Assembly: GCF_000799735.1 (NCBI RefSeq)
Contig: NZ_JUHH01000001.1
Location: forward strand, 1,984,001 to 2,048,000
DNA from: Methylotenera sp. G11
GTDB lineage: Bacteria; Pseudomonadota; Gammaproteobacteria; Burkholderiales; Methylophilaceae
Reading direction: 5' to 3'
Length of the DNA: 64,000 nt
A program made the position numbers and the translations under genes. The notes under the pieces are model-generated. The model did no database searches and had not been told where the DNA came from. It was given only the letters and a program-made list of their open reading frames with translations. Position 1 is the stretch's first letter. The number at the start of each line of letters is the position of its first letter. Below are positions 32,809 through 41,048 of the stretch, piece after piece.

Positions 32809-32880
32809 TTACTTGTTCATTACGTACATTGTAACTTCGAAACCGAAACGCATTTCAGTAGCAGCTGGTTTTGTCCACAT
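32809..32880 (-). CDS. pqqA: PqqA, precursor peptide of pyrroloquinoline quinone
   Basis: A 23-residue peptide, [10 protein letters not shown] followed by [13 protein letters not shown]. It has the defining Glu15-x3-Tyr19 pair, whose side chains are cross-linked by PqqE to become PQQ, and the FEVTMY core shared by methylotroph PqqA peptides. AGGAG precedes the ATG. PQQ is the cofactor of methanol dehydrogenase in the periplasm. Only pqqA is here: the downstream terminator ends the transcript about 20-45 nt later, so pqqBCDE must be elsewhere. A solitary or extra pqqA copy would allow much more precursor than enzyme to be made. Confidence 0.95.
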
Positions 32881-33125: not shown

Positions 33126-35414
33126 TCAGTCAGCATTCCTGATGCGTTTGATCAGTTTTTTGATGCCTTTGCGGCCGTATTTGCGTTTGAATGCCACTTT
33201 GAAATCGTATAGATAAAAAGCCAGCCTGATCCTAAAGCTGATTTTCCTGCTCATATTCGCCAGGTACAGACCCAGGAAGCGTTCGCGGCCAGCCCAATGC
33301 AGTTTGTTGCAGATGCGGGTCAGGTCGGAGACGCGCTGGCTGAGCGGGGTCGAGTATGAGTAGAAGCGTGCACGTGCCGTGTCTATCAGTGAGAAATGCA
33401 GCTGTTTGCCTGCGTCTGCCCGAACCAGGATGTTGCCGCCGGATAGATCCCTGAAAAACGTGCCGCGATGATGCATCTTGAATAGATATTGCGCAAGCTG
33501 GGCATATGTTTCCTCTGCGCTCACAGTGATGTTTTTGGCCGCGATATGGAAGTCTTTATTGCCTTTGGCAAAATGTATGAACATTTCGCCCACGGAGCAG
33601 TCTGCGGTCACGTAATCACAGATGTAGAAGTTCTGCTTGAGTGTGGCGTCCTGCTCTTTTTCAAAGAAAGCGACCGGCTGTGCCGAATCTATGCCGCGTC
33701 TTAACAGTTCTACAGCGCCGTTCCAGCTGCGTTTTGCTTTGCTGGGTTTGAAGCGGTCGAAAAACTGCTTGTGCGGGTACATTTTTACCGGTTGCTTGAC
33801 CGTGATTTTCCGCGTGGTTTCCTGTGCCGGGTTTTCCGTTGCGGTACGCGGGTCCGGCAATGCCCAGATGGCATTGCGCGCATGGCGCAAGGCATCGTTC
33901 TTGTGCGGGCTGCTCAAGTGTTGCGGGTTGAGCTCCTTAGCCAGCAACGCCGCTTCTTCTGCATCTTTTGCCAGTATCATGCCGAACCAGCCGTCCTGGT
34001 GATACGGGTAGTAACGCAAGCCGGGAATGTAAGCGTGGATTGCCAGGTTTCCGGCAAGGCGGCTGCCTGGTTTGGCGGTCATGGTGTGGCTGATTGGCCA
34101 GCGCAGGTAGATCGGGCTTTCATTGATAATGTGCGGGGCGTCGGCAAGCAGCTCGCCGTCACGACTGATGATTTCGGCCTGCCGCAGGTCGCTTGCATGG
34201 TAGATGTCGTCCAGTAAAGCGACTTTGCCATTGATGGTCCATGCGGCGTGAATATGATGCTGTGCCGTCTGGAAGTGGTGAATCTCAAGGCCACAGGCAG
34301 TCGCGATGGCGGCTTTGTAATTTGCACCCTGCACGATGCCTGCAACGGTCTGCATGGCATAAAAACTGGGATGGCGCCTGAACTGGCTTCTATCGCCATC
34401 TACACTTGCATAATGCGTGACGCGTTCCAGCGCCGGGTATTCTGCATCGCTTAAGCCATCATTGATCAGACCTTCGCGGTGGCAGATCATCGCCCCCCAG
34501 AACACCTGGTCAAGTGCGCCGGAAGCAGCGTTCAGCACCATGTAGCGTGCAAGGTAGTCGGCCTGTTTCTGTTCACCATCTGGCAGCAGGCGCTCTATGC
34601 GGTAAATTGCCCAGAATGCTACTGGAGATATAAAGCGTGCAATGCCAAAATCAGTACTGATCTTTCTAAGCAGCCGTGCTTTTTTAACCAGGTTGAATTT
34701 CAGTCTGGTTGCCCAGCGGTATTTGAAAATACGATGATCAAAACGCTCAGGCTCAGAAACGCGCTCGCTGAACAAATTATTGGTATGGATATCCGGTAAT
34801 TGGTTTCTGGCTTTGAGCATGCTCAGTATGCCGATATTGTAGATCGGTTCGAAGTCTGTCACGTTGGGGCCGGCCAGCGTGATGCCGCGTTGCCTGATTT
34901 CCTGATAGGCAATATCCCAAGCCTGCATAAAGCCATCTACGCTGTAACCCGCCCAGCGCTTTCTGTTGATGGTCGCGCCGATCTCAACACGCAGGATCCG
35001 GCTGCCGAAACGCTCAAGCACTGCATGCACGAATGTGCGCCAGAGTGCCTGTTCAGCGGCATCCCCCATGTTTCTGGCATTGCTGAAAGGCTGCACCAGA
35101 TGCAGCGTGACCTGGAATCTGTCATCCAGCAGGCGCTGCAGAAAGCGCGCATTAAAGCTCTGCAGGTCGCCATAGCTGAAGTCCAGGCGCACCTGATGAA
35201 TGCCTAGCTGCTGCAATTGGCTGATCACGTAGTCATCCATGGCGGCATCTTCGGCAGAGGCTATGCATATGCCTATGAAATCGGCAGGTACCGGATGTTC
35301 AGGCGGCGGCAGGTGGCCGCGCCTGACATAAAGCCTGCCGCACATGATATACGCAAGACCTTTGCGTATGATGGGCCAGCTCAGCATGCTTGGTTGCTTT
35401 TTATTCATGTGCAT
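33126..35414 (-). CDS. Fusion of glycosidase-like domain and lipopolysaccharide-kinase-like domain
   Basis: 762 residues from the ATG at 35414; ATG 35408 and TTG 35417 are alternatives. Residues about 45-400 look like a TIM-barrel glycosidase of the GH39-like kind (VEIGATINRKRWAGYS, LAGPNVTDFEP, LPDIHTNNLFSERVSEPERFD). Residues about 540-760 resemble the WaaP/InaA LPS kinase family: HHRGTFFRDLSGGNILV with the catalytic Asp near 656, then SLIDTARARFY as the metal-binding loop. The tail is strongly basic. There is no signal peptide, so at least the kinase works in the cytoplasm, probably at the membrane on lipid A core or another glycan. It begins within 3 nt of the stop of the LTA-synthase-like gene, so the two are coupled. 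The pairing of domains is read from the sequence; the substrate is unknown. Confidence 0.8.
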   Translation of the reverse strand: MHMNKKQPSMLSWPIIRKGLAYIMCGRLYVRRGHLPPPEHPVPADFIGICIASAEDAAMDDYVISQLQQLGIHQVRLDFSYGDLQSFNARFLQRLLDDRFQVTLHLVQPFSNARNMGDAAEQALWRTFVHAVLERFGSRILRVEIGATINRKRWAGYSVDGFMQAWDIAYQEIRQRGITLAGPNVTDFEPIYNIGILSMLKARNQLPDIHTNNLFSERVSEPERFDHRIFKYRWATRLKFNLVKKARLLRKISTDFGIARFISPVAFWAIYRIERLLPDGEQKQADYLARYMVLNAASGALDQVFWGAMICHREGLINDGLSDAEYPALERVTHYASVDGDRSQFRRHPSFYAMQTVAGIVQGANYKAAIATACGLEIHHFQTAQHHIHAAWTINGKVALLDDIYHASDLRQAEIISRDGELLADAPHIINESPIYLRWPISHTMTAKPGSRLAGNLAIHAYIPGLRYYPYHQDGWFGMILAKDAEEAALLAKELNPQHLSSPHKNDALRHARNAIWALPDPRTATENPAQETTRKITVKQPVKMYPHKQFFDRFKPSKAKRSWNGAVELLRRGIDSAQPVAFFEKEQDATLKQNFYICDYVTADCSVGEMFIHFAKGNKDFHIAAKNITVSAEETYAQLAQYLFKMHHRGTFFRDLSGGNILVRADAGKQLHFSLIDTARARFYSYSTPLSQRVSDLTRICNKLHWAGRERFLGLYLANMSRKISFRIRLAFYLYDFKVAFKRKYGRKGIKKLIKRIRNAD

Positions 35415-35417
35415 CAA

Positions 35418-37385
35418 TTATTGCGGCAGGCGGAAACGCTGTTCGTTGTAAAGCAGATCAGGCAGCAGCACATTGGCGAGCGCGCGCTGCTCCAGCTCTT
35501 TTGCGTTGGCAGGCGGGCTGGTTTCATTCAGCTGCTTTGTTTTTGTGTCATAAACAGCATAAGCCGGTGCTTTGTCTGAGCGCAATACAACGACCTGGTT
35601 GCCGATCTGCGTTTGCTCCATCCAGCCGAAGTTGGCGTTATATTGCATCATTGCACGGCCAGGGCTGTCGGGTGCAACGCTGGATAAATCGCGCCCTATC
35701 ATCGGGTGCTGCGCTTCAATGCCCATCAGTGACAGCAGTGTCACCGGCAGATCAATCTGGCTGGCCATGCCCGTGTAGCGCAGGGGTTTGATGTCGGCGC
35801 CCAGGATCAGGCCGGGGATATGGAAACGTTCGACCGGCACCAGTGATACGCCGCGCACGCGGATGTCATGGTCAGCGACGATCAGAAATACCGTATCCTT
35901 CCAGTACTCACTTTGCTGGGCTTTCTTAAAGAACTCGCCGATCGCGTAATCTGCATATTTCACTGCATTGTTATCGGTGTTTTTCGGCTGTTCGTAGAGC
36001 TCGATACGGCCATCGGGAAACTCAAACGGCGCATGGTTGGATGACGAGAATGCCAGCGTGAAGAATGGCTTGCCTGTCTTGTGGTGAGCCAGCAGCTGCT
36101 CATGGGTTTTGTTCAGCAGGTCTTCATCAGACACGCCCCAGCTGCTGATGAATACCGGGTTCTTATAATCTTTCTGCTCCACGATGTTGTTGAAGCCATT
36201 GCCGGTAAAAAAGCTGCGCATGTTGTCAAAATGCGATTCGCCACCGTAGATGAATTCGGTGTTGTAACCGCGTTTTTCCAGCAATGCCGCCAGTGTGAAA
36301 AAGTTTTTCTGTGATTTCGAGAGCTTCACCGTGCTATCGGCCGGTGTAGGCGCAAAACCCGCAGTCACGGCTTCAATGCCGCGCACGGAGCGTGTGCCGG
36401 TCGCATACAGCTGCTCGAACCAGATGCCCTGCTCCTTGAGTTTCTCCAGGTTGGGCGTAACCGGCGTGCCGCCTAAGGATTCCACAAAAGTTGCGCCCAG
36501 GCTTTCTTGCAGGATGATGACAAGGTTGAGCGGTTTTTCGCGTTTGTGGCTGGGGTGCAGTGTGGTCAGCGTCGGGATATCGGTATCTTTTGCACCGGTT
36601 AGCCTCATTATTTCTTCGCGCGGCATCTTGCCGTAAATATCACTGGATTTTGTTTCCTTAAGCAGGTTGTAGCTTGCATATACCACCGAGTAACCGGAGT
36701 TCAGCACCAGGCTATTCACCATGCTGTCTGCCGTGATCGCAAACAGGGCAGGATTGGCCGGGCGGTGACCCAGCGATGAACGGATGCCGAACGCGGCCAG
36801 GATGAAAACCAGCGGCCAGACTACCCAGGTTCTTTTATTCGACCAGCTTGGCTGCATGCCAAGCCATGGCTTCATGTAGCGATGCGCAAGCCATGCTGTC
36901 AGGCTTGCCGATATAAGCACTGCAAAAATATCCACCTTGAAGCCGCGCCAGAGCATGCTGAAAACTTCATTCGGATATTTGAGGTATTCAACAAAGATGC
37001 GGTTGGGACGTACATCATATTCGTTGATGAATCCAGGCGTTGCTACTTCCAGAAACACCAGCAGCACAATCGCCGCGACTACCCAGCCATAAGTGAACTT
37101 CTGCCAGACCTTGAATAAGCGCTGAGTTGCGAGAACCGGTGCCAGCAATAGCGGAATCAGGGCCAGCAGGCAGAGCTGGATAATGTCGACACGCACACCC
37201 TGCAACAGGATTTCGGCTAACTTGCCGGTATTAGCCACACGGTCAAATTTCCAGATGACGAGGCCGAAGCGTGAGGCTGAAAGCAAAATCACGCCAATGA
37301 CGAACATGGCAAGAAATGGAGCGAACGGGCCCAGCCTGGATGACAGCTGCCAGATGGATTGATGCAGTTTTTTAATCAAAGACAT
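35418..37385 (-). CDS. LTA-synthase-family sulfatase (alkaline-phosphatase superfamily) in the inner membrane
   Basis: 655 residues. Five transmembrane segments in the first 210 residues precede a periplasmic sulfatase-type domain (about 285-600). Metal and active-site pattern: Glu294 in ILQESLG, Thr331 in YATGTRSVRG (nucleophile position in LtaS-like enzymes), and VADHD near the end of the domain. Family members transfer phosphoglycerol or phosphoethanolamine from phospholipids to glycans such as lipid A, osmoregulated glucans or teichoic acids. In a Gram-negative, the acceptor is probably a periplasmic or cell-surface glycan. The neighbouring kinase fusion and the lysophospholipid genes aas and lplT suggest linked envelope work: using phospholipid headgroups would leave lipid by-products to recycle. 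Confidence 0.88.
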   Translation of the reverse strand: MSLIKKLHQSIWQLSSRLGPFAPFLAMFVIGVILLSASRFGLVIWKFDRVANTGKLAEILLQGVRVDIIQLCLLALIPLLLAPVLATQRLFKVWQKFTYGWVVAAIVLLVFLEVATPGFINEYDVRPNRIFVEYLKYPNEVFSMLWRGFKVDIFAVLISASLTAWLAHRYMKPWLGMQPSWSNKRTWVVWPLVFILAAFGIRSSLGHRPANPALFAITADSMVNSLVLNSGYSVVYASYNLLKETKSSDIYGKMPREEIMRLTGAKDTDIPTLTTLHPSHKREKPLNLVIILQESLGATFVESLGGTPVTPNLEKLKEQGIWFEQLYATGTRSVRGIEAVTAGFAPTPADSTVKLSKSQKNFFTLAALLEKRGYNTEFIYGGESHFDNMRSFFTGNGFNNIVEQKDYKNPVFISSWGVSDEDLLNKTHEQLLAHHKTGKPFFTLAFSSSNHAPFEFPDGRIELYEQPKNTDNNAVKYADYAIGEFFKKAQQSEYWKDTVFLIVADHDIRVRGVSLVPVERFHIPGLILGADIKPLRYTGMASQIDLPVTLLSLMGIEAQHPMIGRDLSSVAPDSPGRAMMQYNANFGWMEQTQIGNQVVVLRSDKAPAYAVYDTKTKQLNETSPPANAKELEQRALANVLLPDLLYNEQRFRLPQ

Positions 37386-37456: not shown

Positions 37457-38806
37457 TCAATGTTTTAACCGGATCCAGTTCATAAACGATTTATAGTACA
37501 GCGGCTGGCGTGCGCACAGGTAGATCATGACGATGATATTGAGCAGTGCCGTGGTTAAAAACAGTTCCGGTATATTCAGGCCCTGATGGAAAATCCATAG
37601 CGAAAAGCCGGCTGAAACCACCATGAATAGCGCATTGAGGATATTGGTGGCGGCAATGACGCGTGACTGGTGGCTTTTTTCGGCGCGCGTTTGTATGAAC
37701 GCATACAACGGCACGATATAGAAGCCGCCAAACAGCCCGACCAGCATGATGTCCAGTATCAGGCGCCAATGGCTGAAAATGACATTGCCATGCATATCAA
37801 GCTGTTTGCCGATGAATGTCATGTAATCAGAAAGTGTTTGATTATTCCAGTGCCCGTGGATGTGTGTGCTGGAATAGTACAGATCGATGCTGAACAAGGT
37901 GAGGCCGATTGCGCCGAATAACACCAGGCCAAGCTCCACCCTGCCTCTGGATAGCCGCTCGCATAGCAGGGAGCCGACACCGATACCTAGCGAGAAAGTG
38001 GTCAGCAGCAGGATAAACACGCTCTCGTCGCCATGCAGGATGTTTTTGGCAAAACTCGGAAATTGCGCCAGCAGGGTTGCGCCGTAAAACCAGAACCAGG
38101 AAATTGCAATGATGGCGAGCCATACCGCCTGGTGCCGCCAGATGAAGCGGATGCTGCGGCAGGTTTCGGTGAGCGGGTTCCAGTTGATCTCCAGTTGCGG
38201 CTCCTGTGCAGGCGAATCAGGAACGCCGCGGCTATGCCAGTAACCGAGTACCGCGATGATTAAAATGGCGACGCTGGTGATGAGTTCGTGCGGGTGCTGG
38301 ATTGCAAGCCAGGCACCCAGCACCTGCCCGAGCAGGATGGCGACAAAAGTGCCCATTTCTACCATGCCATTGCCGCCCATCAGCTCATGTTCACCAAGGT
38401 GCTGGGGCAGATAAGCGTACTTGACCGGGCCAAACAGCGTGGAGTGCATGCCCATCATGAACAAAGCGATTGCCAGCAGCCAGATGTTATGCAGAAAAAA
38501 ACCTGCGCTGGCAAACAGCATGATACCGATTTCAAATTTCTTTACGAGGCGGATGATTCTCGATTTTTCAAACTTGTCTGCCAGCTGGCCTGCGGTGGCC
38601 GAAAACAGGAAATACGGCAGGATGAATATGCCAGGCAGAATGGTGACCAGCATGGCTGAATCAAGGCTGGTCAGGCTGGCAGCATGAAATGCAACCAGCG
38701 TGATGAGTGCGGTCTTGAACATGTTGTCATTAAACGCGCCCCAGAATTGCGTCATGAAGAATGGCCTGAAACGCTTTTCTGTCATCAGTTTAAATTGGTT
38801 GCTCAT
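37457..38806 (-). CDS. lplT: MFS lysophospholipid transporter LplT
   Basis: 449 residues with about 12 transmembrane segments. The N-terminal FRPFFMTQFWGAFNDNMFKTAL motif is characteristic of LplT. LplT flips lysophospholipids from the outer to the inner leaflet of the cytoplasmic membrane so Aas can re-acylate them. Slightly longer than the enterobacterial protein (about 400). It lies 121 nt downstream of aas on the same strand; in many proteobacteria the two are neighbours or fused. Confidence 0.9.
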   Translation of the reverse strand: MSNQFKLMTEKRFRPFFMTQFWGAFNDNMFKTALITLVAFHAASLTSLDSAMLVTILPGIFILPYFLFSATAGQLADKFEKSRIIRLVKKFEIGIMLFASAGFFLHNIWLLAIALFMMGMHSTLFGPVKYAYLPQHLGEHELMGGNGMVEMGTFVAILLGQVLGAWLAIQHPHELITSVAILIIAVLGYWHSRGVPDSPAQEPQLEINWNPLTETCRSIRFIWRHQAVWLAIIAISWFWFYGATLLAQFPSFAKNILHGDESVFILLLTTFSLGIGVGSLLCERLSRGRVELGLVLFGAIGLTLFSIDLYYSSTHIHGHWNNQTLSDYMTFIGKQLDMHGNVIFSHWRLILDIMLVGLFGGFYIVPLYAFIQTRAEKSHQSRVIAATNILNALFMVVSAGFSLWIFHQGLNIPELFLTTALLNIIVMIYLCARQPLYYKSFMNWIRLKH

Positions 38807-38927: not shown

Positions 38928-41048
38928 TTACGCCTGCTCCGCCATGTTCTTCAGCGTGACATAATCCGTTTTTCCGGTACCCAGCAGCGGCAGTTCTTCT
39001 ACCACAATCAACTTTCTCGCGACAGCAAGTTCCGGGTTGCCTAACTCCTTAGCGCTGCTGCTCAGTTGATCGCGGGTTAGATTGCTGTCGGTGGTGAACA
39101 GCAGGATGCTTTCGCCGCGCTGCGCATCCATCTGGGTGGTGGCCGCGTGCTGGTGCTGCGGCGAGGCATGGCTGGCGATGGTTTCCACGGTTTCCAGCGA
39201 CACCATTTCACCGGCGACTTTGGCAAAGCGTTTAACGCGGCCTTTGATAAATAAAAAGCCATCTTCATCGATCTTTACAATATCGCCGGTGCTGTGCCAG
39301 CCTTCATCGCTTGCCTGGATCACGCCCGGGTTGTCATACAGGTAATACCCCAGCATCACATTGGGGCCACGTACCGATAGCAGGGCGCCATCTTCTATGC
39401 CGGGAACCGACTCAAGCTTTGATTCCAGCCCCGGTATCAGTGTGCCTACGGAGCCCGGTTTGCTGGCCATCGGTGTATTCACGGCCAGTACCGGCGCGCA
39501 TTCAGTCGCGCCGTAACCTTCGAGGATGCGGATGCCGAATTTATCCACCCAGGTCTTGCGCACTTCTTCATTGAGTTTTTCGGCCCCGGCGACGACGTAG
39601 CGTAATTTATAAAAGTCGTAAGGGTTGGCAAACTTGGCATAGTTGCCCAAAAATGTACTGGTACCGAATAATACAGTGCAGCCGCGGTCATAAATCACTT
39701 CCGGAATCACGCGGTAGTGCAATGGTGATGGATAGACGAACATGCGGCTGCCGGCCACCAGCGGCAGGATGGCGCCGCAGGTAAACCCAAACGCATGGAA
39801 CAGCGGCAGCACCATCATGAATTTGTCCTGCATGGAGAAATCAATGATGGATTTGATCTGTGCGACATTGGCAAGGATGGTGCGGTGAGAATGTACCACG
39901 CCCTTGGGTTTACCCTCAGAGCCCGATGTAAACAAGACAACGGCAGGGTCATTGGGGTTGCTCTTTGCCACCACCAGCCGTGGGAACCATAATGCAAAAC
40001 CCATCAGCCACAGTTTATCCAGCCAGCTGAATTTTGGCCTTAAGTCTTCCAGGTAAATAATATCGATGCCTTGCAGCCCGGCAATGGTTTCTTCCAGTGC
40101 GGCAGCTTTGATAAATTCGCGCGAGCTGATCACTGTTTTGACGCAGGCTGCGGTACATGCATTCTGGATACCGGCGCTACCCGCCGTGTAGTTGAGCATG
40201 GCGGGGATGCGCCCGAATGCGCTCAAGCCAAAGATCAGGCAGATCGTGTTGGTCACATTGGGCATCATGACCCCCACATTTTCATTCTGCTGAGTGACTT
40301 TGCCGGCCAGCCGGCCTAATGCCAGGCTTTTTTTCAGCAGTTCGCCGTAGGTTTCTTCAACCTGGCGCATATCTTCCACCAGAACGGTGCTGCGGCCATA
40401 AGTTGAGATTGCATCAAGAAAGGACTGGAACAGCGTATTGATCTGTGTGGAGCTGAATAGCATGTCCTGCATTTCGCGGCGCATGGCATCGCCGGCCAGT
40501 TTGCGCCTGGCTTTTGCAGTAGGCGCCTCCGGCATTGCAATGTGGCGTGTGGGCAGGATGGTGATGTTGACTTTGGGCAGCAGCTTTTTGGCGTGCGGTT
40601 GGGATAGGCGGCTAAAGTAGGAATGTGAAGCACCTTCAATGCGCACCGGCAAAATCATGGCGCCGGTTTTGGCAGCCACAAAGCCGGGGCCGTCATATAC
40701 CTTCATCAGCGACCCGGTCAGCGTGATGCGCCCTTCCGGGAAGATGACGACCGGCTGTCCGGATTCCAGCAGTTTAATGACTTTTTTCATGGCCAGCGGT
40801 GAAGATGGATCAACCGCCAGGTAAGGGGTCAAACGCAGTATCTGCCTGAAGAACCAGTGGTTGAGTACGCTGGTATGTACAACAAATGTGGCACGTATGG
40901 GCAGGAACAGACCCAGCAGCAGGCCATCGAGGAATGATTCGTGGTTGGCAATCACGAGCAGCTTCCCTTGTTTGGGAAGATTGGCAATGCCATTGACATT
41001 GACTCTGAAAATAATTCGGCAAATCAGTTTTAGAAATTTTGCAATCAT
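38928..41048 (-). CDS. aas: Bifunctional acyltransferase/acyl-ACP synthetase Aas
   Basis: 706 residues. Residues about 15-190 are a PlsC-type acyltransferase (His36-x4-Asp41 in NHESFLD, FPEGR at 103-107). Residues about 210-700 are an AMP-binding acyl-acyl-carrier-protein synthetase (FTSGSEGKPKGVVHSH, EGYGATECAPV, STGDIVKIDEDGFLFIKGR). The protein activates fatty acids and re-acylates 2-acyl-lysophospholipids at the inner face of the inner membrane. Downstream of the ArsR-type gene by 24 nt, so probably co-transcribed and controlled by it. Confidence 0.92.
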   Translation of the reverse strand: MIAKFLKLICRIIFRVNVNGIANLPKQGKLLVIANHESFLDGLLLGLFLPIRATFVVHTSVLNHWFFRQILRLTPYLAVDPSSPLAMKKVIKLLESGQPVVIFPEGRITLTGSLMKVYDGPGFVAAKTGAMILPVRIEGASHSYFSRLSQPHAKKLLPKVNITILPTRHIAMPEAPTAKARRKLAGDAMRREMQDMLFSSTQINTLFQSFLDAISTYGRSTVLVEDMRQVEETYGELLKKSLALGRLAGKVTQQNENVGVMMPNVTNTICLIFGLSAFGRIPAMLNYTAGSAGIQNACTAACVKTVISSREFIKAAALEETIAGLQGIDIIYLEDLRPKFSWLDKLWLMGFALWFPRLVVAKSNPNDPAVVLFTSGSEGKPKGVVHSHRTILANVAQIKSIIDFSMQDKFMMVLPLFHAFGFTCGAILPLVAGSRMFVYPSPLHYRVIPEVIYDRGCTVLFGTSTFLGNYAKFANPYDFYKLRYVVAGAEKLNEEVRKTWVDKFGIRILEGYGATECAPVLAVNTPMASKPGSVGTLIPGLESKLESVPGIEDGALLSVRGPNVMLGYYLYDNPGVIQASDEGWHSTGDIVKIDEDGFLFIKGRVKRFAKVAGEMVSLETVETIASHASPQHQHAATTQMDAQRGESILLFTTDSNLTRDQLSSSAKELGNPELAVARKLIVVEELPLLGTGKTDYVTLKNMAEQA

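Follow-up and report, generated by a model that had tools for sequence, protein, structure and literature searches.

Phosphorylation of the lipopolysaccharide (LPS) core by a kinase, followed by the action of a phosphodiester transferase, is an already known form of core decoration. WaaP is described as a cytoplasmic kinase of the LPS core with K51, E78, an HRD motif containing D163, and D188 as key residues (PMC6147952), and CptA as attaching phosphoethanolamine (PEtN) to phosphorylated heptose I (Hep I) (PMC4013655). Phosphoglycerol has been described on the lipid A and core of Colwellia 34H (PMC8914368) and in the O-chains of several genera (PMC3210612). Here we describe a pair of genes from Methylotenera sp. 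G11 that may decorate the core in a comparable way. The pair lies in a stretch of 64,000 nucleotides (the window; contig NZ_JUHH01000001.1, positions 1,984,001 to 2,048,000) and encodes GHK, a fusion of a glycosidase-like barrel to a WaaP/Kdo-type kinase, and an LTAS-like transferase of the sulfatase superfamily. We propose, with a probability of about 0.6, that the two form an enzyme module for decoration of the LPS inner core, analogous to WaaP followed by CptA. A first-pass annotation of this DNA had suggested an unrecognised glycan decoration pathway, and what is new in it is the pairing and the domain fusion, while the order of kinase then transferase has precedent. We found no description of either the fusion or the pair in the literature searched, which was mostly open-access. 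The features of the pair are as follows.

33126..35414, minus strand: GHK, a 762-aa fusion protein (ORF calls, Pfam, AlphaFold2 model and fold matches) consisting of a putative pseudo-GH39 barrel (residues ~37-360), a β-sandwich (~365-482), a WaaP/Kdo-type kinase (~510-720) and basic C-terminal helices
34320..35306, minus strand: barrel subregion of GHK, about residues 37-365, with strands taken from the model
33252..33887, minus strand: kinase subregion of GHK, residues 510-721
35418..37385, minus strand: LTAS-like membrane-anchored transferase of the sulfatase superfamily, 655 aa
35412..35420, minus strand: gene junction, the LTAS stop codon TAA followed by TTG ATG

Domains of the fusion protein and of its partner

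The kinase domain of GHK scores 27.3 bits against Pfam PF06293 (Kdo/WaaP; cut-off, 21.3), which places it in that family, and its homologues in L096, L097 and L098 score 42-56 bits (L codes denote loci and G codes genomes of this analysis). The best PDB match of the GHK profile is WaaP (6dfl; E 3.5e-07), whose HRD- and DFG-type aspartates align with D656 and D678, and Foldseek matches the kinase lobe to the same structure (E 5.2e-08; target-normalised TM-score, 0.62). We examined conservation in an alignment of 38 homologues, comprising the window, 33 of 45 named loci and L096-L099, and by tblastn in all 45 named loci. The latter belong to Methylotenera, Methylophilus or other Methylophilaceae or are labelled only Pseudomonadota, Betaproteobacteria, Burkholderiales or Methylophilales; those left out of the alignment are L065, which has no closed ORF, and 11 others dropped to limit redundancy. 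K540 (assigned as the catalytic Lys by its strand position in the model), the HRD-type D656, N661 and the DFG-type D678 are invariant in 38/38 homologues and 45/45 named loci, and the presumed α-C glutamate E569 is present in 36/38 homologues. Carrying the full set of catalytic Lys, HRD Asp, Asn and DFG Asp, the kinase is predicted to be intact. It scores below the equivalog cut-offs for both WaaP/RfaP (NF011703; 22.7 versus 170 bits) and the Kdo kinase KdkA (NF002475; 19.4 versus 142 bits). The most hydrophobic 19-residue window of GHK averages 1.2 on the Kyte-Doolittle scale and no membrane span is predicted, while the C-terminal helices are basic (net +13 over the last 43 residues). The match to WaaP and the lack of a span thus bear out what had been guessed from the letters alone, a WaaP/InaA kinase domain in a cytoplasmic-looking protein.

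The N-terminal part of GHK is recognisable mainly via its fold: no Pfam family reaches its cut-off there, and phmmer with the whole protein against PDB sequences returned chance matches only. With the Pfam GH39 model PF01229, 0/56 class genomes (that of Methylotenera sp. G11 included) gave a match above cut-off, and two control genomes were positive. In the AlphaFold2 model (mean pLDDT 90.1; pTM 0.90; built on the 38 homologues) this part forms a (β/α)8 barrel and a β-sandwich, the fold of GH39 enzymes, which are also its nearest matches by VIA. Residues ~37-440 match 5jvk with Z 30.2 and rmsd 3.1 over 352 residues, and the barrel matches PslG (4zn2) with Z 28.4, the GH39 matches as a group having rmsd 3.1-3.2 over ~352 residues; these alignments covered mainly residues 37-441, and for the kinase Foldseek and HMMER were used. 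The fold matches confirm the GH39-like barrel that the first-pass annotation had read, and the same model and alignment do not support its implication of an active glycosidase.

In PslG, Glu276 is given as the nucleophile and Glu165 as the acid/base (PMC11912335). At the presumed nucleophile position of GHK, 265 at the end of strand 7, the 38 homologues carry Val (29), Ala (4), Tyr (2), Cys (2) or Asn (1), and the 45 named loci Val (39), Ala (3), Cys (2) or Ile (1). The presumed acid/base position, 148 at the end of strand 4, is Thr in 38/38 and 45/45; the window protein has V265 and T148. The strand-7 STEWGW of PslG has a weak alignment (6.2 bits) to SPVAFW of the GHK profile, and stand-alone barrels of two other genomes carry TEFNW in the columns of position 265, with alanine at the presumed acid/base column. 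Both the strand-7 nucleophile Glu and the strand-4 acid/base Glu of GH39 therefore appear to be missing from GHK, and because neither presumed position is acidic in any of the 38 homologues, the barrel is best described as a probable pseudo-glycosidase. An active glycosidase, which the 45 named loci also speak against, was rejected.

Eleven polar barrel residues (E144, T148, N150, R151, N184, D187, E189, N213, E217, R218 and R313) are nonetheless invariant in 38/38 homologues and 45/45 named loci. Invariant positions are commoner in the β-to-α loops of the catalytic face (26/132) than in helices and far-side loops (16/148; Fisher p 0.044), a modest enrichment with loop limits of our own choosing. 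The simplest reading is that the barrel would have lost catalysis while selection preserved its site for binding a glycan. The invariant residues and their enrichment could also mean that the barrel keeps a different, non-glycosidase catalysis, such as that of a transferase or lyase acting on a core sugar, which would make GHK bifunctional. We consider this quite unlikely: such conservation would be expected of a binding site too, and the pattern matches no known reaction.

The stand-alone relatives of the barrel (L100:9197-10243 and L101:1156-2232, both minus strand) are proteins of 348-358 aa that lack the kinase, keep the TE motif at the nucleophile position and, by eye, adjoin trmB- and thiG-like genes. 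The L100 barrel has no Pfam match and returned one chance match only by phmmer.

The partner protein matches the sulfatase family PF00884 with E 4.7e-47. The closest relative with a solved structure is VP1736 of Vibrio parahaemolyticus (3lxq; E 5.8e-143 over 440 residues), and it is a distant relative of LtaP (4uop; E 7.4e-18) and LtaS. E294, H451, D505, H506, R332 and R335 are present in 61/61 tblastn alignments and T331 in 59/61; by analogy with LtaS, we take E294, T331, D505 and H506 to be metal-site residues. This presumed Glu, Thr, Asp and His metal site within a sulfatase domain places the protein in the LTA synthase/phosphoglycerol transferase group. Ahead of the catalytic domain, residues 18-206 contain six hydrophobic windows (two overlap), which would form a membrane anchor. 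The segments and the domain agree with the first-pass view of a periplasmic phosphoglycerol-transferase-like protein. A second LTAS copy, with 84% identity, is present in the genome of a close relative (G011:C1:402-2354).

All equivalog models are missed by a wide margin: the LTAS-like protein scores 78.8 bits against a cut-off of 572 for phosphoglycerol transferase I (E 3.5e-22), 69.9 against 574 for OpgB and 55.9 against 970 for LtaS. Since the superfamily includes PEtN transferases and the genome encodes CptA, suggesting PEtN decoration of the core in this organism, the enzyme might instead move PEtN or another head group, the rest of the proposal being unchanged. Matches to models of MCR-type PEtN transferases are weak (E 4e-03 or worse) and sit poorly with this alternative, and the closest characterised models and structures are the phosphoglycerol enzymes transferase I and LtaP; we judge it unlikely.

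Linkage and distribution of the gene pair

Both ORFs occupy the coordinates first assigned to them, and GHK starts within 3 nt of the LTAS stop. Directly after that stop, TAA (35420-35418), comes TTG ATG CAT ATG, such that the TTG abuts it and the first ATG lies 3 nt downstream; GHK would have 763 aa if read from the TTG at 35417 and 762 aa from the ATG at 35414. In 14 relatives the first ATG of GHK falls -4 to +32 nt relative to the LTAS stop, and this conserved tight junction suggests translational coupling of the two genes. The ORF pair is not due to chance, because GHK homologues are full-length and open in the same number of relatives (14; 56-81% identity). A promoter scan of the minus strand between lplT and LTAS listed no promoter-like site.

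Across 37 genomes of the genus (that of Methylotenera sp. G11, a single contig of 2,545,099 bp, and 36 others), 16 carry both LTAS and GHK and the other 21 carry neither, LTAS orthologues being counted at an identity of at least 72%. All 15 relatives in the genus that carry the genes have them side by side (in one, GHK runs off the contig), as do 43 of the 45 named loci, among them those of the cultivable Methylotenera mobilis 13 (L035) and Methylophilus methylotrophus (L066); in the exceptions, L052 and L054, an LTAS homologue (63% identity) is found elsewhere in the genome. Farther out the fusion becomes rare. A full-length GHK occurs in 5/370 class genomes, and the barrel profile in 3/397 phylum genomes, our own genome counted in each case. 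Of the other four full-length class homologues, only that of G210 has a close LTAS homologue (53%) in its genome, and there the two genes are on separate contigs. This is a real conserved pair, largely confined to one lineage, and with the genes together or absent in 37/37 genomes the earlier reading of a gene set with the make-up of a glycan-decoration system is supported.

At one locus of Methylophilus aquaticus (L057:5633-7194), VapC-like toxin and transposase-like ORFs, identified by eye, lie between lplT and LTAS.

LPS core context and the proposed module

Within the genus, a PF06293 match at E <= 1e-20, which we take to denote a true LPS kinase, is found in 15/16 GHK carriers versus 4/21 non-carriers (Fisher 6.7e-06, kinship ignored). 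The sole carrier without one is G009, whose genome is 82% complete and gives a weaker match (1.7e-10). When the count is confined to genomes with at least 90% completeness and no more than 5% contamination, the figures are 13/13 carriers versus 1/11 non-carriers (Fisher 5.6e-06). Because heptosyltransferase I is common in non-carriers too (13/21, versus 15/16 carriers), GHK tracks with phosphorylation of the core and not with heptose as such.

The core cluster of Methylotenera sp. G11 encodes heptosyltransferase I, a glycosyltransferase, WaaP (326.3 bits; cut-off, 170), an InaA-like kinase (209 aa; below cut-off), a CptA-type PEtN transferase (L144:11447-13297; 843.8 bits; cut-off, 404), a double kinase (L144:13227-14825; 532 aa) and a NodU-like protein. 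The last of these, also below its cut-off, may be the carbamoyltransferase described in Pseudomonas core clusters (PMC8005017). Run on this cluster, the GHK kinase profile scores 38.1 bits on the C-terminal domain of the double kinase, 30.5 on the InaA-like kinase and 22.0 on WaaP.

Some distant homologues lie close to core genes. Full-length GHK genes in L098 and L099 (genomes G397 and G062) are near hldE, heptosyltransferase I, a gmhA-like gene and a gene for a protein with three kinase stretches; in L098 hldE is above and the gmhA-like gene below its equivalog cut-off, and the L099 genes were read mainly by similarity. Six of 18 LTAS homologue loci also contain an LPS-core-type gene. L116, L119 and L120 (called by HMM in the first and by phmmer in the other two) have KdkA-like kinase and heptosyltransferase-like genes, with a Kdo transferase as well in L116 and L119; L126 combines an HldE-like gene with one for a CDP-glycerol glycerophosphotransferase-like protein, L121 encodes two such glycerophosphotransferase-like proteins, and L131 has one heptosyltransferase-like ORF. 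The LPS inner core is thus the likely target suggested by these gene contents, a more definite one than that of the first-pass annotation, which had named LPS only through the term LPS-kinase.

The three-kinase protein has 741-745 aa and three Kdo/WaaP-type kinase stretches, and is encoded beside the gmhA-like gene (L098:12851-15085 and L099:12902-15127).

A different envelope glycan, such as a capsule, exopolysaccharide or periplasmic glucan, might be the one that receives phosphate and phosphoglycerol, with the barrel binding it. PslG, among the top fold matches, acts on an exopolysaccharide, the LTAS-like protein does match OpgB-type models, albeit far below cut-off, the pair lies outside the LPS core cluster of its own genome, and the distant carrier G210 does have MdoG (two matches). 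On the other hand, OpgG/MdoG was found in 0/37 genus genomes and is absent from the distant carriers G062, G126 and G397, an E. coli control being positive. The kinase domain and some of the distant gene contexts point to the LPS core, and GHK has no transmembrane segment. On balance we regard another glycan as an improbable target. Decoration of osmoregulated glucans in particular was set aside as unlikely in the genus, given the absence of MdoG.

We hypothesize that the inner-core module works in two steps. In the first, in the cytoplasm or at the inner leaflet, GHK would use ATP to phosphorylate a core sugar (heptose or Kdo) of the nascent lipid A-core; its barrel, derived from GH39 and devoid of the catalytic acids, would recognise and position the core oligosaccharide, and its basic C-terminal helices would anchor it at the membrane. 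In the second, in the periplasm after flipping, the LTAS-like enzyme would move phosphoglycerol from phosphatidylglycerol to the core. The acceptor could be the phosphate placed by GHK, as CptA places PEtN on phosphorylated heptose I, or a nearby hydroxyl. A more specific version, which we offer tentatively and hold to be rather doubtful, is that the barrel is an acceptor-reading domain that chooses the phosphorylated sugar and that the phosphate is the landing site for phosphoglycerol, giving a substituent of phosphoglycerol-pyrophosphate type. We know of no description of such a substituent on the core.

Several observations weigh against the inner-core proposal. The module is known here from sequences and a structural model, and its exact reaction is not fixed by orthology, because the WaaP, KdkA, OpgB and LtaS equivalog cut-offs are all missed. 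Nor are the two steps inseparable, because GHK homologues occur in G062, G397 and G126, in which no LTAS homologue was found at E <= 1e-30. The co-occurrence counts ignore phylogeny, and the locus is ~0.43 Mb from the core cluster. In 12 of the 18 LTAS homologue loci, a scan with 11 query proteins picked up no LPS-core-type gene within ~5 kb (L118, L127 and L129, which belong to these 12, are truncated by the end of the contig), and a single genus accounts for L116 and L119, two of the three loci with a kinase. The acid/base position of the barrel was assigned from strand 142-145 of the model and from the stand-alone barrels rather than by residue-level superposition. As for the known chemistry, one review places CptA action at KdoII, not Hep I (PMC3526765), and no LPS structure from the Methylotenera/Methylophilus family turned up in the portion of the literature that our search reached.

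Inner-core phosphates and their substituents set the charge and stability of the outer membrane. To our knowledge no enzyme has been assigned to phosphoglycerol of the Colwellia type, in a search that was not exhaustive, and the module offers a candidate enzyme pair for core phosphoglycerol in cultivable methylotrophs. It also gives a context for the solved but uncharacterised structure of VP1736, and GHK would be an example of a glycosidase fold retained without its catalytic acids within a kinase protein.

Neighbouring genes and comparison with known systems

Two genes upstream of the pair had been read as part of the same pathway.

37457..38806, minus strand: lplT-like major facilitator superfamily (MFS) gene, a neighbour and a non-obligatory part
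38928..41048, minus strand: aas-like acyl-ACP ligase/acyltransferase, a neighbour unassociated with the pair across the genus

The pair is downstream of aas-lplT in this window, as the first-pass annotation had it, and the gene order amt-arsR-aas-lplT-LTAS-GHK recurs in L015. It was on this order that an active cytoplasmic glycosidase and kinase, working with an LTA synthase-like enzyme and fed from phospholipids through Aas/LplT recycling, had been proposed. The conserved neighbourhood turned out to be that of GHK and LTAS and does not extend to aas and lplT. The frequency of aas is similar in carriers of the pair (11/16, with one internal stop in G036) and in non-carriers (11/21; Fisher p 0.50). 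The gene immediately preceding the pair (or GHK alone, if LTAS is not its neighbour) is lplT in 13/45 named loci; of the 39 with at least 7.5 kb of upstream sequence, 24 have lplT, 22 have aas and 10 have neither. In these counts lplT was accepted at an identity of at least 50%, and the MFS genes at 25-26% identity in L041, L043 and L048 were excluded. A reaction of the LTA-synthase type would leave diacylglycerol, not the lysophospholipid handled by LplT and Aas. We rejected feeding by Aas/LplT, as aas is about equally common without the pair and lplT or aas are missing or displaced in many loci; with neither presumed glycosidase position acidic in 38/38 homologues, the scheme as a whole is very improbable, and by their distribution aas and lplT do not appear to be part of the module.

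Other genes near the locus and its relatives deserve brief mention. In L026 a 549-aa protein with a GACQNC motif and no Pfam match (L026:4055-5701) is paired with an amidohydrolase-like gene downstream of aas, and genes like it lie between aas and lplT in L022 and L025. Between the GHK gene and mltA of the window (32809-32880, minus strand) we identified by eye a PqqA-like ORF of 23 residues, as expected in a methylotroph.

Each component of the module has described relatives from which it departs. WaaP (RfaP, 6dfl), the LPS heptose I kinase, shares the kinase fold and motifs with GHK, whereas only GHK has the N-terminal pseudo-GH39 module of ~480 residues, and the genome encodes a separate WaaP. 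The PA5006-type kinase of the Pseudomonas LPS core cluster, as described in PMC8005017, can be likened to the double kinase L144:13227-14825, which holds the best single-domain match of the GHK profile in the core cluster; that protein has two kinase domains and, unlike GHK, no barrel, and by its position in the cluster it may be the counterpart of PA5006. PslG and the other GH39 glycosidases (4zn2, 5bx9 and 5jvk) have the same barrel and β-sandwich as GHK over ~350 residues (Z 28-30), but the presumed catalytic positions of GHK are non-acidic and it has no transmembrane segment. The LTAS-like protein aligns with VP1736 (3lxq) and with LtaS, LtaP and OpgB, keeping the presumed metal-site residues, while falling far below the equivalog cut-offs of both LtaS and OpgB; VP1736 is labelled uncharacterised in the PDB, and we found no mention of it or of 3lxq in the literature searched. 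The closest parallel to the pair as a whole is WaaP followed by CptA, homologues of both of which are encoded in the same genome: the shape is the same, a kinase and then a phosphodiester transferase of the sulfatase superfamily, with the difference that the second enzyme is here related to phosphoglycerol transferases and a probable pseudo-glycosidase is fused to the kinase.

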